Virus record (IMG/VR): IMGVR_UViG_3300046007_003718
Coordinates: 1-64,000 of that record
Direction: 5' to 3' (one strand)
Source: a virus
DNA length: 64,000 nt
Part shown: positions 3,260-58,156 of the stretch, in pieces
How positions within the stretch are numbered: the first letter of the stretch is position 1
Layout: each line of letters opens with the position of its first letter
Notes under the pieces: generated by a model
Databases searched by the model: none
Seen by the model: the letters and a program-made list of their open reading frames with translations, nothing else
What the model was told of the DNA's origin: nothing
Translations under genes and position numbers: made by a program

Positions 3260-4357
3260 TTAGGCACCTTCATATGTTACAATTTCTTCTGGTTCAGGGT
3301 CTTCTAATGGATCTGCTTCCACTCTAAGTGGAATTATTTGCATCCAACGATTTAAAAAGTGTAAAGTAGCATTAGACGGGCTACCCAGATGGGCTGGATC
3401 TTTTCTATACACCTCAGTCAATTCATCATCTTTATTTAACGTTATTCGGTATGTTGTATTAACACTTTGTCTAGTATTTGCAGCAGCAAGGAAACCACTA
3501 AGCGTAGATGTTGGCAAAGATCCATTAATTGATAATCCTAATTGGAAACCAATATTATTATTTCCGCAGTACGCTTCGGCTCCACCGGAAAGAACATATT
3601 CTCCATCGTAAGGAACTCTTAAAACGGGGCTGCCACCATAATCAAAAATACTTGTTCCAGAAGTATTTGTATTTCCATTAAACCATGCTGTACCAATTGT
3701 TGTCACTTCTTCTGAAACAAAATTAATATAGGGAGCGCCCCCAATAAAAAGCCATTTATATTCAGAAATAGTTGCAGCGTGATATTTGAAAGACCATCCG
3801 ATATCTCTTTCGTCTTGCGTTGCAAAAAGATAATAACAATGTTGACCATCTACTACATTGCGAGATGGAATAAAATCATCAAAAGGAGTTATCAACTTTT
3901 GCGATACAACGACAGTTCCGGCATTTAATTGATCTAGAGTTGCAGACCCATATAAGGCACTTCCGGGAAAAGTTGCAGTTCCCAACTCTGCAAAACTATT
4001 TCTTGCCTTATTAAAATCACATATAATTTCTTGTTCTGCATTAATAAACAAACGTGACGGGGCATTGAGCCTTACATCTCCTCCAATAAGTTCTCCAACT
4101 GGTAGAGTTTCATTATCTTCTTCAAAGCGAGAATGAATTACCCAATTATTATCCAACTTTGTAACAAGCCAATGTTCCCCGACTTTGGGGACTTGCACAT
4201 AAGGAGATTGAAAAAATGCAAATGTCAATTGAATTTGTTGATTAGCAGAATCTCTTCCTTCAAGATATCCAACTGATGGATCACATTGGGTTATTCTAAT
4301 TTTTTTATATGAATATGCTTGATTTAACAAACGATATTGAGGAGTGTTTCCCATCAT
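3260..4357 (-). CDS. Baseplate/fibre protein with N-terminal OB-like and C-terminal jelly-roll-like domains
   Basis: A 365-residue virion protein. Residues 1-110 read like an OB-fold baseplate module (beta strands, LVTKLDNNWVIHSRFEE). Residues about 210-345 resemble a C1q/TNF-like jelly roll (PVLRVPYDGEYVLSGGAEAYCG, then NNIGFQLGLSING), a fold common in receptor-binding tips. The start overlaps the end of the CHAP gene by 4 bases. The position between tail hydrolase and wedge genes suits a spike-tip or receptor-binding protein. Domain assignments are by pattern only. Confidence 0.6.
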   Translation of the reverse strand: MMGNTPQYRLLNQAYSYKKIRITQCDPSVGYLEGRDSANQQIQLTFAFFQSPYVQVPKVGEHWLVTKLDNNWVIHSRFEEDNETLPVGELIGGDVRLNAPSRLFINAEQEIICDFNKARNSFAELGTATFPGSALYGSATLDQLNAGTVVVSQKLITPFDDFIPSRNVVDGQHCYYLFATQDERDIGWSFKYHAATISEYKWLFIGGAPYINFVSEEVTTIGTAWFNGNTNTSGTSIFDYGGSPVLRVPYDGEYVLSGGAEAYCGNNNIGFQLGLSINGSLPTSTLSGFLAAANTRQSVNTTYRITLNKDDELTEVYRKDPAHLGSPSNATLHFLNRWMQIIPLRVEADPLEDPEPEEIVTYEGA

Positions 4358-5196
4358 TCTGCAAATATCCTTCCAAAAGTTACTGTCTTATTTAAGACCC
4401 TATCTGTTGTATCTCTTAAATCATAAGTATGTTTTTTACCATAAACACCACGACCACCTAAACCTTGAGTTCCAAGAGAAATATCTCCAGTGGCGCTTAC
4501 CTTAACTTGACGGTCTGGGCCAGTATTTCCTTCAATAGTTGTAAAAAGTCCAATCTTTCCGCGATTTTCCCACGGTTTAATTCTCCATTTAGAGAAAAAA
4601 CCAACATGGTCATTTTGATAATCATCTGTTTCTAACCCGAAGACGACAAGATCGCCAGCCTCAACCTGCTTGGGTGAAATTTCTCTTAATTTTCTTTCTC
4701 CAATAAGACCAGACTCTCCCCAAGTTTTTGCTAAAGCAAGGCCATCGGTATCTTTAATATCTCTGAATCCTGCTTGGTAATAACACCAAGCGGTAAAAGA
4801 AGCACACCACGCGGCATTGTAAGCCCCTGTTATTTCTTGGTAAGGTGGAACTCCTAGCCTCGGACTTTGACTAATGTGAGGACCAGCACTATTGCCTTGC
4901 GTTGCTCGGATTTCTCTTTTGAATTCGCAATATGCAAATTCATAAGCCCTTCTTCTTATAAGCATATTTGATTTATATTTATTTGTATCATAAAAAGTTT
5001 TTCTTTTACTTTTTTTAGCAAATTCAAAAGGATTGTTCTTTAATTCAAAAGAAAAAACTTCAAATATATCTATACTCTTTGGAGTGCTACAAACTGCTGG
5101 AAAATCAGTAAATTGTTTTAAAGTTTCTGGGGGTACTCTTCCATAAAAGGGATCAAATAATTGATTATTATTTAAAGGAGTAATTATGCTTGCCAT
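4354..5196 (-). CDS. CHAP-domain peptidoglycan hydrolase
   Basis: Cysteine amidase/endopeptidase of the CHAP family that cuts wall peptides. The C-terminal half has the catalytic Cys131 (NAAWCASFTAW), His197 (NDHVGFF) after the typical GDLVVFG strand, and the acidic/amide partner in TIEGNTG near residue 222. Residues 1-100 are a basic extension, probably for attachment to the baseplate. Its place inside the tail operon, five bases after the hub gene, points to a virion-associated lysin; a role as lysis endolysin cannot be excluded because no other dedicated endolysin is seen in the window. Confidence 0.8.
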   Translation of the reverse strand: MASIITPLNNNQLFDPFYGRVPPETLKQFTDFPAVCSTPKSIDIFEVFSFELKNNPFEFAKKSKRKTFYDTNKYKSNMLIRRRAYEFAYCEFKREIRATQGNSAGPHISQSPRLGVPPYQEITGAYNAAWCASFTAWCYYQAGFRDIKDTDGLALAKTWGESGLIGERKLREISPKQVEAGDLVVFGLETDDYQNDHVGFFSKWRIKPWENRGKIGLFTTIEGNTGPDRQVKVSATGDISLGTQGLGGRGVYGKKHTYDLRDTTDRVLNKTVTFGRIFAE

Positions 5197-5201
5197 ATTT
5201 A

Positions 5202-8200
5202 TTAATTCCCATCCTGAGTCGTGATCGGATCAATTGAATTCTCTCCCTGACCCGGATTATTACCCGGCCTTGTCCCAGTTCTACTTCCGCCAGTTCTGGA
5301 AGGCGGTTTTGTTTTTGTTTTTGGCTTGGCTTTGGGCTTCGTAGTAATCCTAAGTCTTTTAGGTTTATTTTCCGCAACGTCTGGTGGATATACGAGAGTC
5401 ATCGCCCAATCATTTCCTTTATTAGTTGTTCCCGGAGCCATTAGTAATGCTTCTGTATAAAAACCATTTTGATAACTAAATGAATGAGTCACTTCTTTAA
5501 CATAGAAAGTTACTGAATTTTTTGAGTAATCCTTAACTGGAGAATTAAGTTCTAGTTCCACAATCATTCCGGGGAAAAGTTCTGGCATGAAGGTCAATTC
5601 AACTCTTGTAATAAACTGTTCCGCCCATTTTTGTATAAAAGTATGATATGCATAGAAAAATTCAAAAACAGGATGACGGATTGTAGGAATTTTTTCTAAG
5701 TATGGTCTTGCTCCATACCTTTCTAAGAATTTATAAGCAGCACCTTGACCTTCAAGAATTTCTCTAGGTCGTTTTTTGGCAGTCGCAATCTGATCGGCAG
5801 TTAATTTACTAGCATCTTCTAAAGTGTCTAAATCTGTTTTTGTAATATTGTCGTCTTCAAAAGGTCTTAAAAATGAATCAAGAATAAAAGGTCTCTCAAT
5901 TGTTACAACTCCAGAGCCGAGCAATTTTTCATACCATTCAACGTTAATTCTTCCAGCGTCGGCTTCATTAAAACCAAACGGGTTTCCTAACACATAAACG
6001 TGAGTGACAAGTTGACGGTCAGAAAGACTAATAGTACAACTTTTAATTTCAGTCGGGCTAACTCGTAGCCACGGATTTCTTCCAGTTAAGTTAAAATAGT
6101 CAGGATACCACGCCATGAAATCTCCACTAGGGAGAGATGCAAAAGTTCTCATTGATGCTTTACAAATTTCTCCAACAGATTCAAAAAGTTTTACATCATT
6201 TTCAAGAGCGCGGTCTCCCGTAAGTAACACAGACTCAAGGAGGCTTCCGGGGAAGTTGAATGCAACATTAAATGCTACAGTTTTTGCTTGAAGGAAGGCA
6301 TCTGTAGAACCAGTTCCCCCCTCTCCACTAACGTCTGATCCAAAAGAAGATGGTGGATTTTCCGTATCTCCAATAAGATTATGTCTCCATAGATTGTATC
6401 CACCATCATTAATAAAATCTTGCGCGGTTCTTTTAAATTGAGGACCGCGATTAGGGCCTTTATTCGCACTTTGATCTGGACGAGTACATTCTGCACATTT
6501 TCCATCAGCACCAACCACCATAGCAACGTGACCAGCGCCTCCTTCTCCAGTTCTAATAAAAAGATGACCGGGTTTGAATTTTGTTTTATCTTGAATTTGA
6601 ACAGAATCTGCCTCAAGCGTTCCTGTCGTATCTGCATATTTATTTTTAGGAATCAATTTTGCGCTCTTCATACATGCAGCAATAAAACTAGAACAATCTA
6701 AGTTGCCCTTTTTACGAAGAACTTCTTCCACATCAGCATAAGGACTTCTATCATCCATGCTATATCCAATATCCCAATTTGCTTCATTGTGATTAACTAT
6801 TTTTAATGCTGCTTTAATAACTTTAGAGGCTGGGCTATCATCCCCAGTATTAATCGTTCCTTCGCCAATCGCTTCAGTTCCTGCGCTAATATTTTCTTGT
6901 TTACCTTTTTCTTTATATAATTTTTGATAGTCTAACAAGGCTTTAATAAAAATTCCGGCAAGTTTATCTCTATCATATTTTAATTCCCCAGTCGTAGAAG
7001 GAAGTTCTACAATTGCGGCAGCAGAAGAGTTCGTATAATAAAAACCATAATAATTTTGCATTCTATTCCAAGTATTGCCAGATACTGTTGTTAAATCATT
7101 TATAAAATTATCTCCTGCTGTCAAACCTCTTACTTTAGATCCGATAAATGAAATGAGTTGTGCGGAATTTTTATGAAGTCCTTTGTCATCATGAATGGAG
7201 TCTCTACCACCTTCTCCATCTGAGGGTTTGACAAAACCTGCTCCTCCGATTAAATTGCCATTATTATCTTTATAATAACGGTTCGGTCCCGGTTCTCCGG
7301 GTTTTCCCGGAGGGGAAGCGCTTGTACTAGATTGAGTCCCTTGCACAGATCTTTTTGATGGCCCGGCAATCCCAATAGATGAACCCGGAAAGGCGCTAGG
7401 ATCATGATGAATTGAAAGATATACATCTCCTGCCCATCCCCTTGGGCGAGAAGTTTCTGTTGCGAATTGAATGTCTAATCTTTTTTTATCATCTTCGCTT
7501 AAGGCATTGTATGCTCTTTTCATTGCCTTAATAAAAGCAGCATTTTGCTGAGGTTCGGTATAATCTCCCCCGACTTTTGTTGCTCCGGGTTGCATCTGAT
7601 ATCCCGGCTGCATAGTTGTGTTTGGGCCGGGAGGACCGGCTCCACCAACACCAGTATGGCCTGCTTCTAAATAGACAGAAAGAATTTTATTAGATCCACC
7701 TGTTCTTGAAGAGGGATTTGTTTCATTCGGATTATTCGGCTCTGTAGCATCTAAACTGGCAGTACCAATATTTTGACCAAGGATCGAATACGGCTTATTT
7801 ATATCTACCGGAGAGCCATCTGTCTCTAATGATTTCCATATATCTGTCAAAACTTTTTTCTGGTGTCCACTGCTAAGATTCCACTTAACTAGGAACCCCT
7901 CTACAGTTTGATTATTATCTTCACCAATGTAATATTTTTTATTTCTCAAAACGTCTGCTACATAAAAAACTCCAGCGCGAAAAGATGAAAATGTCTGGTA
8001 GGTGCCGCTAGGGCCAGATACTCTTTTATACCCAAAAGCATTTTTTACATCAGCAGAAGAGTTGGGAGCGGTTCCGTATGAAGTTTCACTCGCCGCTAGT
8101 GCGGCTAAAAATCTTGGATCAATGTCATTTTTCTTACCCGCATCTATAAAATCTTCAGCCTTCATCTCAGAGCCAGAGGCTCTTGATTGAATATCTGCTT

Positions 8201-49886: not shown

Positions 49887-50264
49887 TTAAACGCCCCACT
49901 CAGAAAGGTTGCCATTGGCACGCTCAGGGACTCGGACACGGTACTCGGGGTAATAGACCTCACCGTTGGTGGTGTCCACGATAGCAACCACTACCCACAC
50001 ACCCTGTGCGTCAGCGTCCACCACAGAGTCGTAGATAGAGGTGTCGGCGTACTCGGCAGCCTCGTCCCACTCATCCTTGCCGTCGTAGAGAACATCGAAG
50101 TCCCCGCCCTTGACGACAGCGATGAAGCGGTACAGGTTGCCGTCAGAATCCCAGAATCCCGACTGCGGGGAGCCATGACGGGGAGTTCCCCACGCACTCT
50201 GAATCCTGTCCATCATCTCCTCAGCCTGCTCGCGCTGCTCAATCTCTGCATCGGTAATGCTCAT
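49887..50264 (-). CDS. Hypothetical protein (125 aa)
   Basis: ATG 50264 preceded by AAAGGAGATTCTG. N-terminal helix (DAEIEQREQAEEMMDRIQSA) then a beta sheet of Tyr/Val/Asp-rich strands (RFIAVVKGGDFDVLYDGKD; GVWVVVAIVDTTNGEVYYP). First gene after a promoter cassette. Function unknown. Confidence 0.65.
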   Translation of the reverse strand: MSITDAEIEQREQAEEMMDRIQSAWGTPRHGSPQSGFWDSDGNLYRFIAVVKGGDFDVLYDGKDEWDEAAEYADTSIYDSVVDADAQGVWVVVAIVDTTNGEVYYPEYRVRVPERANGNLSEWGV

Positions 50265-50296
50265 CAGAATCTCCTTTAGTTTGTTGCTGCTTAGAC

Positions 50297-50335
50297 AGCA
50301 TAGCACCTCAGACCTAAGATGCAAGTGCCCGTTTA
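50297..50335 (-). promoter_or_regulatory. Promoter cassette
   Basis: TAAACG (50335-50330), 5 nt, TTGCAT (50324-50319), 16 nt, TATGCT (50302-50297), dyad GCTG-N6-CAGC. Drives the 125-residue gene. Confidence 0.8.
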
Positions 50336-50557
50336 TTCGTCGTAGTAGTCGAAACTGTCTGAGACCGGACCTTCCTGCTGTAGCAGGGAGAACACTTCCC
50401 ACGCCTCGTCCTCGTCCTCTATGTAGAAAGAAACGTCCCGTAGTCCAAAGCCAGCACCAGAATCGAACTGATAACCCTTAGACTCTCGGATGCCCTCAAA
50501 GAAGTCCTGCAACTCGTTTAGACGCTCAATGGGATATGAAGCAGAAACAACAAACAT
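50333..50557 (-). CDS. Hypothetical protein (74 aa)
   Basis: ATG 50557 overlaps the upstream stop (TAATG). Ferredoxin-like strand-helix-strand pattern (MFVVSASYPIERLNELQDFF; DVSFYIEDEDEAWEVFSLLQ). Stop codon is part of the cassette's TAAACG. Function unknown. Confidence 0.6.
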   Translation of the reverse strand: MFVVSASYPIERLNELQDFFEGIRESKGYQFDSGAGFGLRDVSFYIEDEDEAWEVFSLLQQEGPVSDSFDYYDE

Positions 50558-50892
50558 TATCCCTCCCTCCACTCAGGCCCCTCGTCCAGAATGTCCATAA
50601 CCTGAACATCTCCGGGCTGGCAATCAATAAGGTCATGCCAAGCCCAACGGTCGGGGCAATCATCTGAGGCATCGGTTGTGATGCGAAGGGTGATGGTGTA
50701 AACGCGCATCTCTCTCACGTTCAGAACGTAAGCAGGAAACCTCTCACCACAGTCGTAGCACTTGTAGCCACAGACCAGAACCTCACGGTCATGCTCATCA
50801 ATCTCAACATCATGCCCAGACTGCGAGGTGACGTTCTCAGACTGACAGTTTACACAACACTCGGGATTATCAACAAAGTTTACGGCACTCAT
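50557..50892 (-). CDS. Zinc-ribbon-containing protein (111 aa)
   Basis: Two CxxC knuckles (CCVNCQ and CYDCGER) 28 residues apart form a likely zinc ribbon, followed by a beta domain (VYTITLRITTDASD). ATG lies three bases after the upstream stop in TTAAACGATG. Nucleic-acid binding is plausible but unproven. Confidence 0.65.
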   Translation of the reverse strand: MSAVNFVDNPECCVNCQSENVTSQSGHDVEIDEHDREVLVCGYKCYDCGERFPAYVLNVREMRVYTITLRITTDASDDCPDRWAWHDLIDCQPGDVQVMDILDEGPEWREG

Positions 50893-50895
50893 CGT

Positions 50896-51075
50896 TTAAC
50901 CATCCTGTCGGGGAGTGATGTACCCAGCCTCAATCAGAGCCGCAGCCATGCGACCGTAAGAGCCTTGCAGGCTCCATGCCATACCTGTATCCACAAGGTA
51001 CTGAAAGAGGTCAATGATACCCTCCTCATCCAACTCACCCTGCTCATACTCCATAATCGAACTAACGTAATCCAT
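50896..51075 (-). CDS. Conserved small actinophage-type protein (59 aa)
   Basis: ATG 51075, stop TAA 50896. The sequence [19 protein letters not shown], then [20 protein letters not shown] and [10 protein letters not shown], matches a small protein I know to recur in many tailed phages of actinobacteria (DUF7417-like). All helix; function unknown in the family. Confidence 0.75.
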
Positions 51076-51085
51076 TTCTATCTCC

Positions 51086-51166
51086 TTACCTAGTCAGAGA
51101 AAACGTAAGACCGGCCACTACCCACACGGCCAGAACGCCAACTGCGATTACAATAAAAGTTTCCAT
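51086..51166 (-). CDS. Single-span membrane peptide (26 aa)
   Basis: ATG 51166 behind GGAGGGCAAG, stop at 51086. Almost entirely a transmembrane helix ([20 protein letters not shown]). First gene of a cassette-driven operon; role unknown. Confidence 0.55.
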
Positions 51167-51193
51167 CTTGCCCTCCTCGTTGCTTGCCTTGTA

Positions 51194-51233
51194 AGCATAG
51201 GGAATATATCTCACTAATGCAACTATTCGTTTA
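51194..51233 (-). promoter_or_regulatory. Promoter cassette
   Basis: TAAACG (51233-51228), 5 nt, TTGCAT (51222-51217), 17 nt, TATGCT (51199-51194), dyad GCTT-N7-AAGC. Confidence 0.8.
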
Positions 51234-51239
51234 TTCAGC

Positions 51240-51455
51240 CTACCACTCAAAGCGAGCGGAAAGAACCTTGTGGTCTGGGAACAAACACCTAACCTGCTCC
51301 ATCGCTCGGTCCACCATCTCTGTGATGATTTCACTATCCTCAAGGTTTCCCCAAACATAGTCTAGCGTGTCCTCGTTCTGCTCGGTCAGGCTTGCCTCAT
51401 AGGTAAAGTTATCGGCAATACCATTCTCACTAACCATCTCAACGGTAACAAACAT
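51240..51455 (-). CDS. Hypothetical protein (71 aa)
   Basis: ATG directly abuts the upstream stop (TAAATG). Acidic, strand-helix-strand pattern (MFVTVEMVSENGIADNFTY; NLEDSEIITEMVDRAMEQVR). Function unknown. Confidence 0.6.
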   Translation of the reverse strand: MFVTVEMVSENGIADNFTYEASLTEQNEDTLDYVWGNLEDSEIITEMVDRAMEQVRCLFPDHKVLSARFEW

Positions 51456-51812
51456 TTAGATGCGCTCCTCGCTCATTGTGTCCTGTCGGATGTTCTCCAT
51501 CTCCTGTTCGTTGAGCCATGCGTAAGCCTCGGCACGACTCTCCTCGTCAGCCGCAGCCTGTCGCAGAATCTCGTTCCACTCCTCGGGGTCGGTGACATAG
51601 GACTCAGCATCAATCTCGTCCCGACGACGCCGATACTCCTCCTCAATCTGAGCCTCAATGATGCCCTGTCGGTACTCAACCCAGAGAGTCAGAGCCTCAT
51701 CAAGAATGACGAACTGCTCAATGGTGAGGTCTCCGTTTACAGTCAGGTCGTCCAGACGGTGATAGAGAGCCGTAGCCTTGTCCTGCATAATCATAACATC
51801 GTCCTGCATCAT
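51456..51812 (-). CDS. Acidic helical protein (118 aa)
   Basis: Almost entirely helix (LTIEQFVILDEALTLWVEYR; EEEYRRRRDEIDAESYVTD). Either of two tandem ATGs may start it; the first follows AGGAGATAGACCA. First gene after a cassette. Function unknown. Confidence 0.6.
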   Translation of the reverse strand: MMQDDVMIMQDKATALYHRLDDLTVNGDLTIEQFVILDEALTLWVEYRQGIIEAQIEEEYRRRRDEIDAESYVTDPEEWNEILRQAAADEESRAEAYAWLNEQEMENIRQDTMSEERI

Positions 51813-51842
51813 TGGTCTATCTCCTTTCGTGCTTGCTCGTCA

Positions 51843-51882
51843 AGCATACAGGTTAATAGGAAAAAGTGCAACCCCTCGTTTA
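51843..51882 (-). promoter_or_regulatory. Promoter cassette
   Basis: TAAACG (51882-51877), 5 nt, TTGCAC (51871-51866), 17 nt, TATGCT (51848-51843), overlapped by perfect dyad GCTTG-ACGAG-CAAGC. Confidence 0.8.
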
Positions 51883-52251
51883 TTCAGCGTAGAAGGGGTC
51901 GGGGCACCAATGCGAAGCAATCTCCATCTCTCGCTTCCACGAACGCTCCTCCTCCACACACTCGGAGAATCGCTCAATAATGATAGAACCGATGCCCTCC
52001 AACTCCTTGCGGTCTGTATCAATCTGGTTCATCGTGCAGTACGAAGCATCCTCAGCATAATCCCAATCACCATCAGGCTCCTTGGTCAGCACAGAGAAGC
52101 GAAGCAGAGGCTCGTCGGTAGGGTCGGTAGGGTCGAAGTCCCCATACCATCCCTCGCCAATGTAGTCCCACTCAACCTTCACAGTCTGGTCGTCGTTCGT
52201 AACCTCTAGTGGAATAAACGACTCAATCTCAGTTGTCCAATCCTTACTCAT
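51880..52251 (-). CDS. Hypothetical protein (123 aa)
   Basis: Acidic, Trp-rich protein (VKVEWDYIGEGWYGDFDPTD; DGDWDYAEDASYCTMNQ) with a C-terminal helix. Ribosome site AGGAGGAAAG overlaps the upstream stop. Function unknown. Confidence 0.6.
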   Translation of the reverse strand: MSKDWTTEIESFIPLEVTNDDQTVKVEWDYIGEGWYGDFDPTDPTDEPLLRFSVLTKEPDGDWDYAEDASYCTMNQIDTDRKELEGIGSIIIERFSECVEEERSWKREMEIASHWCPDPFYAE

Positions 52252-52259
52252 CTTTCCTC

Positions 52260-52427
52260 CTAGCGTCCGTAGTAGTCTGGGTGATTCATACGATACTTAG
52301 CCTCCTGCTTCATGGCTGCGATACACTCATTATCGCAGCGAGCAGGCAAACCAAGCGTTACCACGTTATACAGCATAACACTTCCAATCACAGAAAGCGA
52401 AGCGTAAAGAATAACCTTCCACATCAT
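52260..52427 (-). CDS. Small membrane-anchored protein (55 aa)
   Basis: Starts at tandem ATGs (52427) overlapping the upstream TGA. N-terminal hydrophobic helix (VILYASLSVIGSVMLYNVVT) may be a signal anchor, followed by two Cys (CDNEC) and a Tyr-rich tail. Function unknown. Confidence 0.55.
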   Translation of the reverse strand: MMWKVILYASLSVIGSVMLYNVVTLGLPARCDNECIAAMKQEAKYRMNHPDYYGR

Positions 52428-52591
52428 CGGTTTCTCCATTCAGTATAAACGCCCACAACTTCATTGTAGATATCGAACGGCTCATCTAGAGTGTGGCCTG
52501 CATCGTCCCGATAGCCACAGTCGTCGTTAGAACCAACATCGCATGAAAGATAGCACGCAAGACCTTGGAAATAGTAGTCAGGCTCTAGCAT
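52424..52591 (-). CDS. Hypothetical protein (55 aa)
   Basis: ATG 52591, stop TGA 52424 (ATGATG overlap with next gene). Starts MLEPDYYFQGLACYLSCDVG with three Cys; could bind metal. Function unknown. Confidence 0.55.
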   Translation of the reverse strand: MLEPDYYFQGLACYLSCDVGSNDDCGYRDDAGHTLDEPFDIYNEVVGVYTEWRNR

Positions 52592-52593
52592 GT

Positions 52594-52803
52594 TTATTCT
52601 CCATCCTCGGGGTAGCCAGCCTGTGAGCGCAGGCTATCAATGAGTGACTGAATAAACTCAACATTCTGCTCGTCAGCATCCTCGTAAGATGAGGAGTCAC
52701 GAATCTCCTCAACATTCTGCCAGAGAGACCAAAGAATGTAGTCCAAGTCCTCAATCGGCAGAGTCACGTTTACATCTCGGTTCCAAAAGTCGTTGGTAGT
52801 CAT
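52594..52803 (-). CDS. Hypothetical protein (69 aa)
   Basis: Acidic helical protein (IEDLDYILWSLWQNVEEI; SYEDADEQNVEFIQSLIDSL). ATG overlaps the upstream stop (TAATG). Function unknown. Confidence 0.6.
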   Translation of the reverse strand: MTTNDFWNRDVNVTLPIEDLDYILWSLWQNVEEIRDSSSYEDADEQNVEFIQSLIDSLRSQAGYPEDGE

Positions 52804-53021
52804 TACATAACCTCCGGTGTAGGAATGTGCAGTCGAAGTCCACCAGCCTCGTAATCGTTCAGAGCATAGTGGATAGCATCAGGCAGGGTAGCAATCATAG
52901 TCTCTACCTCCCCACCGTCGCCGGGACCACCATGATACCAGATATCCCAGCACCTATCATCCATCGCGGGATAAATGTCGTACACGAAGCCCTCGCCGTA
53001 GATACGATCAATAGTCCTCAT
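52803..53021 (-). CDS. Hypothetical protein (72 aa)
   Basis: Start ATG 53021 (MRTIDRIYGEGFVYD) lies inside the previous gene's end, 14-base overlap. Compact fold likely (YPAMDDRCWDIWYHGG; ATLPDAIHYALNDYEAG). Function unknown. Confidence 0.55.
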   Translation of the reverse strand: MRTIDRIYGEGFVYDIYPAMDDRCWDIWYHGGPGDGGEVETMIATLPDAIHYALNDYEAGGLRLHIPTPEVM

Positions 53022-53331
53022 CGTCGTCCTCGTCCATCTCAAAGTCGAACTCCACGATGAGGCGAGCGACACGACCATCGTTGTCGTACTCAACGAACAC
53101 CGGATAAACGCCGTCACCCCAGCCGGTGCTGGTGCAGACCGCATCAGAAAAACGACCCTGAGTAGAGAACTGCCCCGCCCGCTCGTCGCTCAGGCTAGCC
53201 GCACAAGCGCGACCATATGGGGAATCCTCACCGTACTCGCCGTCAAGGACGTAGCAGGGGTCCACAACGAACACCTGACCAGAATCAACGGGAACCTGTC
53301 CCACCTTCACGCGCATACCAGACCTACTCAT
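53008..53331 (-). CDS. Conserved phage-type protein with DPCY motif (107 aa)
   Basis: Has the pattern V-D-S-G-Q-V-F-V-V-D-P-C-Y near residues 15-27, a mid CTSTGWGDGVYPVFVEYDN and an acidic C-terminus. This VDSG...DPCY...GDGVYPV arrangement recurs in small phage proteins of unknown role (DUF4241-like). Function unknown. Confidence 0.65.
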   Translation of the reverse strand: MSRSGMRVKVGQVPVDSGQVFVVDPCYVLDGEYGEDSPYGRACAASLSDERAGQFSTQGRFSDAVCTSTGWGDGVYPVFVEYDNDGRVARLIVEFDFEMDEDDDEDY

Positions 53332-53359
53332 TACTGCCTCCTTTGTTGCTTGCTCGTCA

Positions 53360-53400
53360 AGTGTAGCAGATCAAGTCTGCCGATTGCAACTACTCGTTTA
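53360..53400 (-). promoter_or_regulatory. Promoter cassette
   Basis: TAAACG (53400-53395), 5 nt, TTGCAA (53389-53384), 18 nt, TACACT (53365-53360), dyad CTTG-N5-CAAG. Confidence 0.75.
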
Positions 53401-53589
53401 GATGCGGGTACGCTTGCTGCGCTGATTGACCCTCATCAGAATCTCGTAAACCTCAGCCTCATTCACCGCCTCATGCAGAGAATCAAACTCAGCATCCGTG
53501 AACTCGCTCTCATCAATCACGATAAGATCATCCTCGTCGCATCCACCCCAACTGCCGTCAGCGGCGCTCATCCAGATCACACGACCCAT
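53398..53589 (-). CDS. Hypothetical protein (63 aa)
   Basis: Acidic start with Trp/Cys (MGRVIWMSAADGSWGGCDED), then a helix (DSLHEAVNEAEVYEILMRV) and a basic end. Stop codon forms the next cassette's TAAACG. Function unknown. Confidence 0.55.
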   Translation of the reverse strand: MGRVIWMSAADGSWGGCDEDDLIVIDESEFTDAEFDSLHEAVNEAEVYEILMRVNQRSKRTRI

Positions 53590-53591
53590 GA

Positions 53592-53849
53592 CTAGGCCTC
53601 CCGAATGATCGTAGAGATATACTCAGCGAGCATACCACGCTCATCAGAGTCGTCAGGAAGGGGAATAACGATGCTGCCCACATTGGTCTTAGTGCCGTGG
53701 GCAGTCGTGGACTCAATCAGGATGTTTATACGACCACCCGGCTTGGCAAAGATGCCGACCTCGTAAGTGCGAGCGTAATCCTTTCCTGCATCACGCTCCA
53801 CCTTGTAGATATAGGCCACACCGTTTACATCGTTATTGGTACCAATCAT
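53592..53849 (-). CDS. Hypothetical protein (85 aa)
   Basis: Beta-rich (VAYIYKVERDAGKDYARTYE; RINILIESTTAHGTKTNVGS), ending in a helix. Two bases from each neighbour. Function unknown. Confidence 0.6.
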   Translation of the reverse strand: MIGTNNDVNGVAYIYKVERDAGKDYARTYEVGIFAKPGGRINILIESTTAHGTKTNVGSIVIPLPDDSDERGMLAEYISTIIREA

Positions 53850-53850
53850 A

Positions 53851-54267
53851 TTATGCCTTCCTTTCGTAAGAATCGTACTTTTCGTTTAGAATCGGTCGAA
53901 ACTTCTGCTCAACAAGCGCCTGAGCAGTTTCATACACTTCCTGAGCAAATGCGTTTGTCCACGCCCCGGTCATATCAAAAGAGTCAGGGAGATAAGTGTC
54001 GAACAACTCATCCACCAACTCGCAGGGAGAGGGCCAATAAACGCTGTCCACGTTCTTATCCCAATACTCCCATGCGATGTTAGCGAATACCTTGCCCACA
54101 TACTCTGCATTGTTATTGGAATAAATGACCACACCATAGATGCTCCCATCGAAGGGGTCCACATACGGAGTAAAGGTGATGCCTGCATCGTACTCCACGG
54201 TCTCCTGAAAAGTCTCGCGGAAGTCTTGCAGCACAGCCTTGCTAACAGAACCATAGGACTCACACAT
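53851..54267 (-). CDS. Hypothetical protein (138 aa)
   Basis: ATG 54267 (MCESYGSVSKAV) overlaps the upstream stop (TAATG). Mixed alpha/beta with VIYSNNNAEYVGKVFANIAW and a helical end (FAQEVYETAQALVEQKF). Function unknown. Confidence 0.6.
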   Translation of the reverse strand: MCESYGSVSKAVLQDFRETFQETVEYDAGITFTPYVDPFDGSIYGVVIYSNNNAEYVGKVFANIAWEYWDKNVDSVYWPSPCELVDELFDTYLPDSFDMTGAWTNAFAQEVYETAQALVEQKFRPILNEKYDSYERKA

Positions 54268-54422
54268 TAGGCATCCCACCCACTCACGCGGGCCTGCTGC
54301 TTGGCCTTACGGCGCTGGGTCTTGCGACTCTGGATGCCATGCGTCTGAGAGTGCATGATAGCGAACCGCTGGCCGGTCGTGCTGGTGTCCTGCCGGAACT
54401 TCTTTCGCTGCTTGTTGGTCAC
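54267..54422 (-). CDS. Basic small protein (51 aa)
   Basis: Start probably GTG 54422, 6 bases after AAAGGAG (an ATG two codons earlier is too close). Lys/Arg/Gln-rich (NKQRKKFRQDTST; QSRKTQRRKAKQQARVS), probable nucleic-acid binding. Function unknown. Confidence 0.55.
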   Translation of the reverse strand: MTNKQRKKFRQDTSTTGQRFAIMHSQTHGIQSRKTQRRKAKQQARVSGWDA

Positions 54423-54450
54423 GATCATCTCCTTTGCTTGATGCTCTAGC

Positions 54451-54490
54451 ATCATACAGTATGGAATCCAAAAGTGCAACTGCTCGTTTA
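54451..54490 (-). promoter_or_regulatory. Promoter cassette
   Basis: TAAACG (54490-54485), 5 nt, TTGCAC (54479-54474), 17 nt, TATGAT (54456-54451), dyad GATGC-TAGA-GCATC: the arms differ from other cassettes but still pair. Confidence 0.8.
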
Positions 54491-54697
54491 TTTGCCTTCC
54501 TCTAGGGCAATCAGAGCATTGACAATCTTGCGGGCCTTCTCCTCTGCTTGCTTCATGTAAACGCTACGGTCGCCCTTCACATCCTTACGGACAACGATGA
54601 TACAGACCTCTCCACCCTCCTCATCCATGACCTCAATATGGTCTGCATGAGGAAGGGCAAAGTCGGGTTCCTCGTTCCAATACCAAGCATACATCAT
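54488..54697 (-). CDS. Hypothetical protein (69 aa)
   Basis: Trp/Tyr-rich start (MMYAWYWNEEPDF), beta strand (EVCIIVVRKDVKGDRSVYM), C-terminal helix. Function unknown. Confidence 0.6.
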   Translation of the reverse strand: MMYAWYWNEEPDFALPHADHIEVMDEEGGEVCIIVVRKDVKGDRSVYMKQAEEKARKIVNALIALEEGK

Positions 54698-54706
54698 CTA
54701 AATCAC

Positions 54707-55174
54707 CTATCCGTAGATGAGCCGACCGAACACAGCAATCTGAACCAGAACATCGGCGCAGTCTGCGTCAAGATAGCCGGGGTCGTTCTCACGAAGGGCA
54801 CGCTGAATGTAGCCGGTGATGCTGGTGTTAGCAGGAGGCTCCTCCTGAACAAAGGTCTGGAAAGCCTTAGTCAGATTCTCAGCATTGACCGTATAAATAG
54901 GGGATTCGGTCTCAGCCACATCCTCATTCTCGCGGAGAGTAACCTCGTACCACAGTTCATCAAGAATGTCTCCACTCTCAGGCTTAGTTACCTTAATGTT
55001 TAGAGCGTCAGCCCAATAGAAGGAAGCGCCATAGGAACCATCAAAAGCCCCGACAAGCACAGCGTCCACCATATGCGCGGTAATAGGAAGGGTCGTCGTG
55101 ACCACACCAACCACCGTGGACTTGTCGTACTTCTCCTCTAGAGCCTTAAGACTCTCCGATACATAGTCACTCAT
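54707..55174 (-). CDS. Hypothetical protein (155 aa)
   Basis: ATG 55174 (MSDYVSESLKALEE) after GAAAGGAG. Mixed alpha/beta (STVVGVVTTTLPITAHMVDA; NIKVTKPESGDILDELWYEV). First gene after a cassette. Function unknown. Confidence 0.6.
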   Translation of the reverse strand: MSDYVSESLKALEEKYDKSTVVGVVTTTLPITAHMVDAVLVGAFDGSYGASFYWADALNIKVTKPESGDILDELWYEVTLRENEDVAETESPIYTVNAENLTKAFQTFVQEEPPANTSITGYIQRALRENDPGYLDADCADVLVQIAVFGRLIYG

Positions 55175-55203
55175 ATTGCTCCTTTCGTTTTCCATCTGAA
55201 TAG

Positions 55204-55243
55204 ATGGTATCAGATCAACCAACCAACTGCAACTACTCGTTTA
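55204..55243 (-). promoter_or_regulatory. Promoter cassette
   Basis: TAAACG (55243-55238), 5 nt, TTGCAG (55232-55227), 17 nt, TACCAT (55209-55204), dyad CATCT-ATTC-AGATG. Confidence 0.75.
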
Positions 55244-55477
55244 TACTCCACGCCAACCAGAACAGGTGCCGCATGTGCAACAGCAACTTGTGGGGGATGC
55301 AAGCCAAAGGTAAGCGATAGCCCTCTCAGCATAACGTCCTTTACTATCGGCACAATAAATACGCTGCCAAATAGAGATTGTATCATCGCAGAAGTAACGC
55401 CTATGGGGGTTATCCCATGCCCTCTTATAGATAGGCTTATTAAACCACTCATTATTAGAGCATCCACATCCACACAT
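55241..55477 (-). CDS. Cysteine-rich protein (78 aa)
   Basis: ATG 55477 after AAAGGAGGC. Nine or more Cys: MCGCGCSNNEW at the start, FCDD, YCADS in the middle and TSCCCTCGTCSGW at the end, suggesting one or two metal sites. The C-terminal codons run into the next cassette. Function unknown. Confidence 0.65.
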   Translation of the reverse strand: MCGCGCSNNEWFNKPIYKRAWDNPHRRYFCDDTISIWQRIYCADSKGRYAERAIAYLWLASPTSCCCTCGTCSGWRGV

Positions 55478-55502
55478 AAAAGCCTCCTTTAATGATTTAT
55501 AC

Positions 55503-55596
55503 TACCCCTAGCGGGAGTCGAACCCGCGATAAACTTCCGCGTAAGCCAAGCGTCCTTGTGCGTTACCGGCGTCGTTGCCGCTAGACCATTAGGGGC
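55503..55596 (-). tRNA. tRNA-like gene (94 nt), anticodon not assignable
   Basis: On the minus strand: 7-bp acceptor stem (GCCCCTA with TAGGGGT, first pair G-U), 3-bp D stem (GTC/GAC) with a GG-containing loop, and a perfect T arm (GCGGG-TTCGACT-CCCGC) with the GTTCGA core. The 40-odd nt between D and T arms do not form a standard 5-bp/7-nt anticodon arm; a GTAA/TTAC stem enclosing CAAG/CTTG forms instead. It could be a class II tRNA with a poor stem, or a degenerate tRNA. CCA is not encoded. Its promoter starts transcription at about base 1 of the tRNA. Confidence 0.6.
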
Positions 55597-55602
55597 ATGA
55601 GT

Positions 55603-55630
55603 ATTATAGACGGTTCCACAATCAAGTCAA
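55603..55630 (-). promoter_or_regulatory. Consensus-like promoter of tRNA-like gene
   Basis: TTGACT -35 (55630-55625), 16 nt, TATAAT -10 (55608-55603); the expected start, 7 bases on, coincides with the first tRNA base. Confidence 0.75.
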
Positions 55631-55669
55631 AGGTAGGCTTGACGTAACAATGCCCGCTCCCTGCTCACC

Positions 55670-55846
55670 CGTCACCGACAACCGATTCCTTTAGTTTACT
55701 TATTATTAGTATAAATGGCTCTCGCGCCTAACGTCCCATATTGGTTGTTAGGATTTCCCGACCTACCAATCGGTTTCTTACGGAGATTCCTCCACCCCAC
55801 TAGGTCAAGAGTGGTAGCCCTCGCCTAGTAGGTCGTGAGAACCGCT
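55670..55846 (-). ncRNA. Structured RNA candidate with pseudoknot
   Basis: Runs from the hammerhead cleavage site to about 40 bases before the tRNA promoter, with no reading frame. Closing stem CGACCTAC (55835-55828) with GTAGGTCG (55766-55759) encloses hairpins CCACT/AGTGG and GGAG/CTCC. AACCGATT (55775-55768), inside that stem, pairs exactly with AATCGGTT (55687-55680) outside, giving a pseudoknot. A further stem CCTAAC/GTTAGG (55752-55747 with 55732-55727) and hairpin GGC/GCC follow. The density of perfect pairings is far above chance by eye. I do not recognise the RNA class. Confidence 0.5.
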
Positions 55847-55891
55847 GACGCCTCTCGGCGTTTCGTCCTATCAGGACTCGTCAGAGCGGCT
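55840..55891 (-). ncRNA. Type I hammerhead ribozyme
   Basis: All conserved elements are present in order on the minus strand: stem I 5' strand AGCCGCT, core CTGACGA (CUGANGA), stem II GTCC/GGAC with a 5-nt loop, core GAAA, stem III CGCC-GAGA-GGCG, cleavage triplet GTC, and stem I 3' strand AGCGGTT (7 bp with one G-U). Cleavage is expected after C at 55847. Stem I is the open one, hence type I. Its 5' half overlaps the last codons and stop (TGA) of the gene at 55871. Confidence 0.9.
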
Positions 55892-56041
55892 AGTTGCCAT
55901 TACCTTCTTATGAACCTGCATAACCCAACCATCCTCAAAGTCGTGAGCATCACACGCCTCGCCAAGACTTTCGTAGGGGCCATAAGCCATGTACCCCGTA
56001 GAGAGATTACCGACAAGAAATACAAAAGTGTAGTCACCCAT
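55871..56041 (-). CDS. Hypothetical protein (56 aa) ending inside ribozyme
   Basis: ATG 56041 (MGDYTFVFLVGNLSTGY) behind AAAGGAGATAGATTC. Small beta-rich fold with YMAYGPYESLGEACDAHDF. Its last codons (TSRSDES) are encoded by the hammerhead stem I, core and stem II, and the stop codon lies in the stem II loop, so self-cleavage would remove the 3' end of its mRNA just after the stop. Confidence 0.65.
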   Translation of the reverse strand: MGDYTFVFLVGNLSTGYMAYGPYESLGEACDAHDFEDGWVMQVHKKVMATSRSDES

Positions 56042-56071
56042 GAATCTATCTCCTTTCTCGCTTGCCCAACA

Positions 56072-56100
56072 AGCATACAGCACTCAATCTAGAAATGCAA
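56072..56100 (-). promoter_or_regulatory. Promoter (cassette without TAAACG)
   Basis: TTGCAT (56100-56095), 17 nt, TATGCT (56077-56072), dyad GCTTG-TTGGG-CAAGC. It drives the gene that ends in the hammerhead ribozyme. Confidence 0.8.
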
Positions 56101-56103
56101 GCC

Positions 56104-56361
56104 TTAGTCGGACTCTGAATAAACGTAACTGACCTCTCCCGAAAGATGATCTGAATGGCGATCATCAAAGAAACGATTGTCGTAAGTACCCCAGACTTCC
56201 TCTCCGGGGACATTAGACGCTGCTGCTTTAGACGCATCAAGGATAGAGTTAGCCAAACTCATAGCCTCGTCTGGATAGAGAGATAGGATAAACCCGAAAG
56301 TGCTATCTCCCGAATCAATCACAACTTGGTCCTCCACAACTGAAACATAGAACTTACTCAT
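56104..56361 (-). CDS. Hypothetical protein (85 aa)
   Basis: ATG 56361 (MSKFYVSVVEDQVV) after GGAGTGAGT. Beta start, helix (DEAMSLANSILDASKAAAS), then acidic/aromatic end. Function unknown. Confidence 0.6.
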   Translation of the reverse strand: MSKFYVSVVEDQVVIDSGDSTFGFILSLYPDEAMSLANSILDASKAAASNVPGEEVWGTYDNRFFDDRHSDHLSGEVSYVYSESD

Positions 56362-56442
56362 ACTCACTCCAAAGTCTGCTTGCCACACACCTGTAGATTA
56401 GCAGCCCCCTATCCCCGTGTCAAGGGATAGGGGGCAACCGAT

Positions 56443-56931
56443 CTAAATGGCCGCGCCGAAGAACTCGGGCTGCTCCTCTGGGGTGTCCACGGCCTGCTGC
56501 TCAAAGGCGGGAGTCGGAGTAGAGAACTGCATGAGCGAGTAGTCGCCGCTCAGGACAAGAGCGACCTTAGTGAGAATGCTCCTCAGAGCCTTATTCTCCT
56601 CCTCCACAGCCTCTAGACGCTGAATAAACTGAATGGAAACGGCCTCGTCGTCCATGCGCTCGTTGAGCATACCCTCAACGACATACTCCACACGGGAGTC
56701 GAAGTCGTCAATGTCGTCGGAATCGAAGGTGCGATAGCGAAGGGCCTCCTCAACTCCGTCAGAGAAGTCAAGGTTGTTGTCAATGTAGTCCTGCACGCGA
56801 CCATCAATGTCAGACTCATCCACGACAGTCTCAGCGATATCGCGGATAAACGACTCGCTGTTATAGACAGCCTCGGTGGCCTTCTCGTCCACCAGAGTCT
56901 CAATGTCTGCGGGCCAATCCTCAAAACTCAT
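56443..56931 (-). CDS. Acidic coiled-coil protein (162 aa)
   Basis: Strongly acidic with repeated Asp clusters (DESDIDGRVQDYIDNNLDF; SDDIDDFDSRVEYV) and a helix with heptads (IQRLEAVEEENKALRSIL). Pro/Gln-rich end. Acidity could mimic DNA; this is speculative. Function unknown. Confidence 0.6.
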   Translation of the reverse strand: MSFEDWPADIETLVDEKATEAVYNSESFIRDIAETVVDESDIDGRVQDYIDNNLDFSDGVEEALRYRTFDSDDIDDFDSRVEYVVEGMLNERMDDEAVSIQFIQRLEAVEEENKALRSILTKVALVLSGDYSLMQFSTPTPAFEQQAVDTPEEQPEFFGAAI

Positions 56932-56963
56932 TACAGTCTCCTCTCGTTGATTGCTTCCCTAGA

Positions 56964-56991
56964 AGCATACAGTATGGATTCTAAAAGTCAA
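56964..56991 (-). promoter_or_regulatory. Promoter (cassette without TAAACG)
   Basis: TTGACT (56991-56986), 16 nt, TATGCT (56969-56964), dyad GCTTC-TAGG-GAAGC. Drives the acidic 162-residue gene. Confidence 0.78.
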
Positions 56992-56994
56992 GGG

Positions 56995-57414
56995 CTAGTG
57001 CCAACCCTCGTCCTGCTCATCTAAACACTCAGTCAGAGCCGCGATAGCACTCTCCAAAGCGGGAGGGGTATAATCCAGACCAGCAATCGTGCCATTGATT
57101 AGCGCACGAATCTCGTCCTCGTACAGATAAACAGGCATCTGCCCCTCATCAAGCACGTTTTCCCAATCGCTAGAGATAACGCTAAGAGATGCAACTCCGC
57201 TCAGAGGCACGACGCACTCGTAAACAGGAGCAGCATCGCGGATAAACGACCGTCTTGCCATGAAAGGCTTACCCACAGAAAGATGCTTCTGAAAATCAAT
57301 AAGACGACGCTGCTTTGCAGGCTCGGGATTCTCCCTAGCCCACTCAGTAGTGTTCTCCCAATCAGTATAAAGGGTGCGCCCATCAACAGTACGAATCTGG
57401 ATGTAAGAACTCAC
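56995..57414 (-). CDS. Hypothetical protein (139 aa)
   Basis: GTG start at 57414 overlapping the upstream stop (TAGTG). Beta-rich (SSYIQIRTVDGRTLYTDWEN) with a C-terminal helix (PALESAIAALTECLDEQDE). Function unknown. Confidence 0.6.
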   Translation of the reverse strand: MSSYIQIRTVDGRTLYTDWENTTEWARENPEPAKQRRLIDFQKHLSVGKPFMARRSFIRDAAPVYECVVPLSGVASLSVISSDWENVLDEGQMPVYLYEDEIRALINGTIAGLDYTPPALESAIAALTECLDEQDEGWH

Positions 57415-57575
57415 TACTCCACCTCAATATCGTTAGAAAACTTCATAACGTCCCAGCCATAATAACCCTCAATCAGAGAAGCGGCCTCCTCAATCGCAAC
57501 CTCCCGGTCAAAATCAGGAGGAGCAATCACCGAAGTTGTGAGGGTGAAATAATCTCCAATAAAAGTCACATTCAT
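57414..57575 (-). CDS. Hypothetical protein (53 aa)
   Basis: ATG 57575 (or 57578, tandem), stop TAG 57414. Begins MNVTFIGDYFTLTTSVIAPP, then helix and GWDVMKFSNDIEVE: a strand-helix-strand miniature fold. Coupled to the next gene by a one-base overlap. Confidence 0.6.
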   Translation of the reverse strand: MNVTFIGDYFTLTTSVIAPPDFDREVAIEEAASLIEGYYGWDVMKFSNDIEVE

Positions 57576-57622
57576 CATCTATCCATCTCCTTTCATCGCT
57601 ACGGGAGTAGCGTAGCATAGAA

Positions 57623-58156
57623 TCACTTAACAGGCAAGGTCCGAAGGTGACGGACCCTATCTCTTGCCCAACGCCTACGAGGCTCGGTAAACGGGTAGTT
57701 GTTCTCAATGCAACCATCCAGCATCTCCAAAACCCTGCTCTCGTCAGACCCCGTTTGTACCGCGAAGTCGTGAATCATCCCGCGAGCGATCTTAAGGTCG
57801 TGAAGGTTCTTTTCCCTGAGAAGTTTACGGTCGTCAGTAGCCTTGTTCTTACGAGCCTGCCGAATAAGACGCTTGGCCTCATCCTTTACCTCACCAACAA
57901 GGTGCTTGTTTGCACCAAGGAAGGTCTCAATGCAGTTGGAACCGGCGATGAGGTCGCCCCCATTGTCCACATCAGAAAGGTGGAACTCATACCGGATTCC
58001 ACCGTGACCACACACCTCGCAGGTAGTGTAGTTACCGGGACCGCGATCAACAGCCCCGACAAGACGAAGCCGGTGAGCATCCCTCTGCTCCTCGGGAACA
58101 CGAATGTCCTCAAAGAACTTCTGGATACCACCGGCCTGTCGCTTGCTGAACTCCAT
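57623..58156 (-). CDS. Zinc-knuckle protein (177 aa)
   Basis: Starts MEFSKRQAGGIQKFFEDIRV. Residues 45-80 have CEVCGHGGIRYEFHLSD and GSNCIETFLG, a possible zinc site; residues 90-125 are Lys/Arg-rich helix (KDEAKRLIRQARKNKATDDR). The C-terminus is Arg-rich. A nucleic-acid-binding role is plausible. Family not recognised. Confidence 0.65.
   Translation of the reverse strand: MEFSKRQAGGIQKFFEDIRVPEEQRDAHRLRLVGAVDRGPGNYTTCEVCGHGGIRYEFHLSDVDNGGDLIAGSNCIETFLGANKHLVGEVKDEAKRLIRQARKNKATDDRKLLREKNLHDLKIARGMIHDFAVQTGSDESRVLEMLDGCIENNYPFTEPRRRWARDRVRHLRTLPVK

Follow-up and report, generated by a model that had tools for sequence, protein, structure and literature searches.

What a self-cleaving ribozyme may be doing between a small phage gene and an RNA that resembles a tRNA is the question raised by a locus in the 64,000-nucleotide stretch analysed here (the window: positions 1 to 64,000 of IMG/VR virus record IMGVR_UViG_3300046007_003718), on whose minus strand a type I hammerhead is followed by a structured RNA domain and a tRNA-like RNA (Table 1). 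Hammerheads of all three types are established in prokaryotes and phages (PMC3088659, PMC6155905, PMC7761336), bacterial copies are reportedly enriched near genes of Mu-like phages (PMC10085705), and the review PMC6155905 treats the role of hammerheads in phages and bacteria as an open question. For the present locus it seems probable, on balance, that the ribozyme would cut so as to shape the RNA cassette that follows it, cleavage and the joint working of the parts being predictions.

A type I hammerhead ribozyme and its conservation

The complete type I hammerhead proposed in the initial annotation is present element by element, with its CUGANGA, GAAA and NUH core in register with three stems, stem I open, and stems II and III closed by loops. 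Stem I joins 55891-55885 to 55846-55840 in seven pairs, one of them G-U; CUGACGA (55884-55878) leads into stem II (55877-55874 with 55868-55865, a fifth U-A pair 55873/55869 being possible), and GAAA (55864-55861) into stem III (55860-55857 with 55852-55849, plus A55861-U55848). The GUC triplet ends at 55847, which places the predicted cut between 55847 and 55846, in agreement with the site first proposed. The Rfam hammerhead model RF00163 matches over its full length with an E value of 3e-4 when 4 kb are searched, 0.0048 when the 64-kb window is scanned against all 4227 families, and 2e-6 when this family alone is run on the 110,395-base phage record, where it is the sole match at E <= 0.001. 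The minimum free energy (MFE) structure of the 53 nucleotides (nt) at 55840-55892 is the hammerhead fold (-21.2 kcal/mol, z score -2.58), and 1 of 200 shuffles did as well.

A strict type I pattern, in which the core, stem II and stem III are fixed and stem I is left free, has 68 matches in 67 stretches of viral contigs. Type I is therefore no rarity among phage contigs, and the count does not bear out the earlier supposition that it is the less common arrangement in phages. According to a review, phages carry hammerheads of types I, II and III (PMC7761336). Stretch L019 (record G003, 31,792 bases) is identical to the window across all its 7350 bases; in stretches L007 and L039 (records G001 and G002) the hammerhead copy has diverged and is followed by the same tRNA-like RNA, the two cassettes being identical to each other; and the 129,640-base record G006, whose tail sheath is 90% identical to the window's, has an orthologous cassette at 88,937-88,484. 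These carriers are treated below as three lineages: window/G003, G006 and G001/G002. RF00163 scores 28.5 bits in G001/G002 and 21.1 bits in G006, and the hammerhead core is intact in all three lineages. Relative to the window, the G006 ribozyme has one CG pair replaced by UA in stem I, another in stem III, and AUC in place of the GUC triplet, with the fold kept. Over the three lineages 96.1% of the cells in the stems pair; sliding the partner by 1-3 columns as a control lowers this to 31-55%. Two pairs are changed on both sides. This sequence comparison supports the view that the ribozyme fold has been conserved through compensatory changes in stems I and III of the G006 ortholog.

Two points count against taking the element for a ribozyme. 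A match to the Rfam hammerhead model was obtained as the initial annotation had anticipated, but its 29.0 bits lie under the RF00163 gathering score of 34, which is a curation threshold rather than a mechanistic feature, so that a default Rfam scan reports nothing here; and the double-change count is reached by 135 of 500 shuffles and the covariation score by 28 of 500, pair statistics that are weak because there are only three lineages. The score below gathering would suit a chance or dead hammerhead-like sequence, a reading rejected on the RF00163 score itself (with its E value in the whole record), the core kept intact in three lineages, the compensatory changes and the slid controls, and to which we attach very little weight. 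The window hammerhead is almost certainly real, and it is predicted with good confidence to cut in cells.

Stem I pairs 1-6 form in 48, 48, 48, 45, 39 and 39 of 48 distinct viral type I copies (shuffle means 18-24), and pair 7 in 5 of them (shuffle mean 15.6). As the seventh pair is so seldom formed, the usual type I stem I has six pairs, and the seventh A-U pair of the window is unusual; this scarcity may point to a fixed contact directly above the six pairs. One viral contig, L028, has two type I matches about 0.9 kb apart on its minus strand (3571-3610 and 4478-4518).

Table 1. Positions of the cassette, its neighbours and the candidate processing enzyme (window coordinates unless a stretch is named)
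Feature	Position	Strand	Basis
Upstream small gene, 56 amino acids (aa) from ATG, AAAGGAG ahead	55871..56041	minus	sequence, open reading frames (ORFs)
Type I hammerhead ribozyme, candidate	55840..55891	minus	RF00163 29.0 bits, MFE fold, G006 ortholog with compensatory changes
Structured RNA domain, four branches	55717..55846	minus	z -4.63, same fold in G006, 3 double-compensated pairs
37-nt block	55660..55696	minus	shared unchanged by window and G001/G002; G006 keeps the 17-nt core 55685-55669
Sigma-70-like promoter match TTGACT-16-TATAAT	55603..55630	minus	11/12 consensus positions
tRNA-like RNA, no encoded CCA	55502..55597	minus	ARAGORN, three-lineage alignment, model R1
Next gene downstream, 78 aa, AAAGGAGG ahead of its ATG	55241..55477	minus	sequence, ORFs
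CCA tRNA nucleotidyltransferase-like gene of the window phage	L071:12363-14273 (record positions 108363-110273)	minus	domain matches

The RNA domain after the predicted cut

A structured RNA had been foreseen downstream of the hammerhead, and a stable, branched RNA domain does follow it in all three phage lineages. The 130 nt that begin at the predicted cut (55846-55717) fold into a five-way junction, as do the matching 130 nt of G006 (z -4.96), and the corresponding stretch of G002, different in sequence, gives z -3.75; in each case none of 200 shuffles did as well, and with shifted ends the G006 stretch gives z -2.81, with 3 of 200 shuffles as good. RNAalifold on the window and G006 finds 51 pairs, four of them with both bases changed: one lies in stem III of the hammerhead, the other three in the last (fourth) hairpin of the domain. 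The closing stem of the domain pairs 55843-55837 with 55723-55717 (GGUUCUC/GAGAGCC), is kept in G006 through two one-sided changes, and uses the 3' strand of hammerhead stem I, on which the predicted closing stem of G002 likewise draws. Because these bases are shared, the ribozyme and the closed domain exclude each other.

The tRNA-like RNA

The location of the hammerhead between the small gene on one side and the structured RNA and tRNA-like RNA on the other is borne out. The tRNA-like RNA has standard acceptor, D and T arms, invariant over the three lineages except for one acceptor pair, and we take its acceptor and D arm to resemble those of actinobacterial tRNA-Glu. Its anticodon arm is apparently a longer hairpin of variable length with an invariant apical ACAAGGACGCTTG (CAAG-GACG-CUUG). 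ARAGORN calls tRNA-Cys(aca) on the window element, with a 7-base loop and three of five anticodon-stem pairs, and on the G002 element it finds a 7-base loop and four of five pairs; no tRNA is called in the G006 stretch. The tRNA-like gene of the initial annotation thus stands as an ARAGORN match, but with two non-pairs in its five-pair anticodon stem, and the "tRNA-Cys aca" label is probably an artefact.

Were this a working phage tRNA, of cysteine or another specificity, the hammerhead would be a device for processing its leader. The intact and invariant acceptor, D and T arms would suit such a role, as would the 7-base loops called by ARAGORN in the window and in G001/G002; the two unpaired anticodon-stem positions of the window, the longer hairpin preferred by the three-lineage fold and the missing call in G006 speak against it, and led to the tRNA-Cys reading being judged unlikely. 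We hold a working tRNA of any kind to be improbable, and go no lower because the G002 arm is only one pair short. As there is no normal anticodon arm, the RNA is probably non-decoding. Nor is it a tmRNA: ARAGORN reports none in the window, the tmRNA model matches the T arm alone (18.5 bits, where the gathering score is 47), and that identity was dropped, a full structure with a tag frame not being found. Model R1, of which the window is one of three building sequences, scores 116.8 bits on the window's tRNA-like RNA; R1 also matches stretches as long as an ordinary tRNA in phage Ava3 (40.3 bits), G006 (33.8) and L012 (31.8), against 114-130 for the cassettes, so that weak R1 matches mean little.

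Stretch L012 (positions 7526-7675; IMGVR_UViG_3300008012_000002) has a type I hammerhead that would cut about 40 nt ahead of a tRNA in which ARAGORN settles no anticodon, giving two letters only; it is possibly a second, separate case of a ribozyme accompanied by an odd tRNA.

Between the domain and the tRNA-like RNA lie two conserved stretches. The 17-nt core of the 37-nt block is matched in eight stretches of viral contigs, four of them cassette phages and four others (L089, L091, L092 and L093), which have none of the other features of the cassette and were taken as chance; just ahead of the tRNA-like RNA, TGTGGAACCGTCTATAAT (18 nt, 55620-55603) is identical in all three lineages. A 10-nt inverted repeat around the tRNA-like RNA (55495-55504 / 55707-55716) was set aside, as it is not seen in the G001/G002 alignment. 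The 78-aa gene that follows has no Pfam match.

Position at gene ends

The small gene upstream, for which a 70-aa ORF from GTG 56083 is an alternative, had been thought to end within stem II; its stop codon (55873-55871) lies instead in loop II, with its U at most in the fifth stem II pair. The ribozyme is therefore partly coding in the window, as had been proposed, but this is a property of the lineage: the G006 homolog of the gene stops before the ribozyme and does not overlap it, and in G001/G002 an ORF without evident homology to the window's small gene (MITLKEAQ...) stops in the same hammerhead loop. Overlap with a coding end is thus, by sequence, not fixed at this locus. The upstream ORFs of the window and G002 both end in RSDES because the ribozyme encodes these C-termini.

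The arrangement is common among viral type I copies. Dropping duplicates at +/-12 nt reduced the 68 pattern matches to 53 copies, which may still be related; the window is not counted among them because L019 is identical to it. ORFs were called mechanically at a length of at least 60 codons, frames open at the left end of a stretch being allowed, and 2000 random places in the same stretches served as control. The stop of an upstream ORF falls inside the ribozyme in 32 of the 53 distinct copies (11.2% of random places), an ORF starts within 60 nt downstream in 27 (14.6%), and both hold in 18 (2.1%). A position at gene ends is thus common for type I hammerheads, and the counts suggest that in phages these ribozymes often mark gene junctions and often bear the stop codon of the preceding gene.

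How the ribozyme may shape the cassette

In the mechanism that we consider probable on balance, a cis-acting type I hammerhead would cleave the polycistronic transcript of the minus strand where the small gene ends, and so give rise to a noncoding phage RNA cassette whose 5' end is at 55846. The freed 3' strand of stem I (AGCGGUU...) would pair with 55723-55717 and close the five-way-junction domain, and this closure should make the cut irreversible. The tRNA-like RNA would probably be trimmed by host RNase P, and CCA would probably be added by the phage's own CCA-adding-like enzyme. This 636-aa protein combines PolyA_pol, RNA-binding, HD and nucleotidyltransferase domains, and its best NCBIfam match, to CCA tRNA nucleotidyltransferase, scores 181 bits where the cut-off is 439.

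In favour of this mechanism stand the RF00163 match and exact core, the compensatory changes, the fold of the downstream domain and the frequent place of viral type I copies at gene junctions. In addition, the elements from the hammerhead to the tRNA-like RNA occur together and in the same order in the three lineages, with a different upstream ORF in G001/G002. When L077:1956-16390 of G002 is compared with window 49,000-65,000, 16 ORFs homologous to the window keep their rough genome order, with local swaps, on the opposite strand, and another ten ORFs, situated past 12.5 kb, have the same strand as in the window; within this rearrangement the unit from hammerhead to tRNA-like RNA has been flipped as one piece, its inner order unchanged. 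Among the small ORFs of G002, order is kept and strand reversed as though modules had flipped singly.

Co-occurrence with the enzyme gene also speaks for the mechanism: a PolyA_pol-family (CCA-adding-like) protein is encoded in four of the five cassette records (the window's own, G000, with G001, G002 and G006, hence in three lineages) and was found in none of 24 cassette-free records, which comprised 7 actinobacterial phages from the deposited set and 17 of the 64 further contigs that bear a type I hammerhead. Among 50,697 phage records, 424 have tblastn matches to the protein.

Several observations weigh against this mechanism. The co-occurrence is confounded by the kinship of the carriers, and many of the comparison records are fragments; in the fifth cassette record, G003, with its 31,792 bases, no such gene was found. 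The domain sequence cannot be aligned between the window and G001/G002, and the near-invariance of the acceptor, D and T arms leaves no covariation test for the tRNA-like RNA. Over uncut stretches some 200 nt long, enforcing stem I costs 2.7 kcal/mol (window) or 3.2 kcal/mol (G006) relative to the best fold, so that activity would depend on folding during transcription; from these folding models we infer that the ribozyme folds and cuts as it is transcribed and then cedes its stem I strand to the domain. Finally, the promoter-like site ahead of the tRNA-like RNA suggests that the latter may be made independently.

This last point underlies the chief alternative, that the hammerhead is an ordinary intercistronic processing site and the tRNA-like RNA starts at its first acceptor base from its own sigma-70-type promoter, the link between the two being positional only. 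In TTGACT-16-TATAAT, which agrees with the consensus at 11 of 12 positions and is also read in G001/G002, position +7 is G55596, the first acceptor base, and the -10 region is kept in all three lineages; moreover, around 59 of the 68 type I matches from viral contigs ARAGORN calls no tRNA in whatever sequence was covered up to 3 kb away. Yet promoter-like sites occur at shuffle level (two in the scanned 1.2 kb, against a shuffle mean of 1.3), and G006 has lost the -35 and has TATAAT 3 nt instead of 6 from the acceptor, which makes the promoter reading uncertain. A purely positional link also sits poorly with the conserved domain between ribozyme and tRNA-like RNA and with a unit that has stayed intact through rearrangement. 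We regard this alternative as possible, though unlikely.

Hammerheads also make circular RNAs in retrozymes and viroid-like agents, as a review has it (PMC7761336), and an element of that kind would need two ribozymes or a ligase. The record holds a single RF00163 match, no other Rfam ribozyme appears in the window (E <= 0.05) or in the rest of the record (E <= 0.01), and RtcB is matched in none of four records, which may be fragments; a circular RNA is scarcely credible here.

Phage setting and distribution

The window belongs to a myovirus; over the best 15 of 214 records, its tail sheath shows 31-37% identity with the sheath proteins of phages of Mycobacterium, Gordonia and Rhodococcus. The first 40 kb of the window have a G+C content of 0.36-0.44; this rises to 0.58-0.63 between 40 and 48 kb and then declines in steps, reaching 0.42 in the last part (60-64 kb). 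No DNA similar to window positions 50,001-58,000 was found among the 50,697 phage records; blastn of the cassettes against the same deposited records gave short or weak matches only (3, 2 and 0 records), scanning bacterial genome contigs for conserved cassette strings found none, and protein-based searches led to further relatives through the tail sheath only. The cultured phages Phrappuccino, E3, RedWattleHog, Ava3 and Pupper were chosen for a related sheath or ThyX, and Wentworth was added; RF00163 at E <= 0.1 has no match in four of these six, and the matches in Pupper (18.3 bits, apparently in coding sequence) and Wentworth (14.6 bits) were taken as chance. A 29-nt match to half of the ribozyme, shared with L095 (phiRKBJ001), pointed to a permuted, type II hammerhead-like sequence in Streptomyces phage Wentworth (L094:1502-1553, in the gap between coding sequences 76 and 75), read by eye and without an Rfam match at that place at E <= 0.1.

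Known systems and significance

The ribozyme itself is of a known kind. With the Rfam type I family it shares the core letters, three stems, an open stem I and an NUH triplet; it differs in its score below gathering, in the stop codon in loop II and in the downstream domain that competes for the 3' strand of stem I. The bacterial Y RNA YrlA carries a tRNA-like module, and the present RNA is alike in that its tRNA-like module is attached to another RNA domain; no Y RNA-family Rfam match was found in the cassette at E <= 10, and TROVE (Ro60) is matched in none of four records, which may be fragments, a host Ro60 being possible.

The nearest functional parallel is offered by theta ribozymes, because they lie at phage tRNA 3' ends and their carriers are enriched for genes of CCA-adding enzymes. 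According to PMC10879173, these are hepatitis delta virus (HDV)-like ribozymes of gut phages, and those associated with tRNAs cleave no more than 5 nt away from the 3' end of the tRNA. Shared with the window are a small self-cleaving ribozyme adjoining a phage tRNA and the CCA-adding enzyme genes (PMC10879173), whereas the window element is a hammerhead, and the tRNA-like RNA, abnormal in its anticodon arm, begins some 250 nt after it; with both the HDV-like fold and the cut at a tRNA 3' end absent, identity with theta ribozymes was rejected. The HHphage hammerhead of haloviruses HF1/HF2 lies 13 nt before a helicase start codon (PMC3088659) and is likewise placed between genes of a prokaryotic virus, but the next unit there is a start codon and in the window an RNA domain with a tRNA-like RNA.

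What looks new is the conserved cassette that pairs a hammerhead with a tRNA-like RNA. Among the matches listed in a search of titles and abstract openings, which covered published papers other than preprints, no paper linked a hammerhead to a tRNA-like RNA in a phage; a preprint reportedly describes hammerheads near viral tRNAs. A bolder proposal, which we put forward tentatively and consider unlikely as it stands, is that the cassette represents a new family of phage noncoding RNA with a hammerhead-made 5' end and a CCA-finished tRNA mimic as its 3' part, a self-processed decoy whose product strand refolds to lock the cut. A role as decoy or mimic is speculative; if true, the RNA might, for instance, counter host defences that cut tRNAs or occupy enzymes that handle them. 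For the question of what hammerheads do in phages, the locus provides a concrete and conserved substrate: the ribozyme is linked to one particular RNA downstream, can be compared with an ortholog and with a more diverged copy, and is predicted to give a 5' end at 55846.
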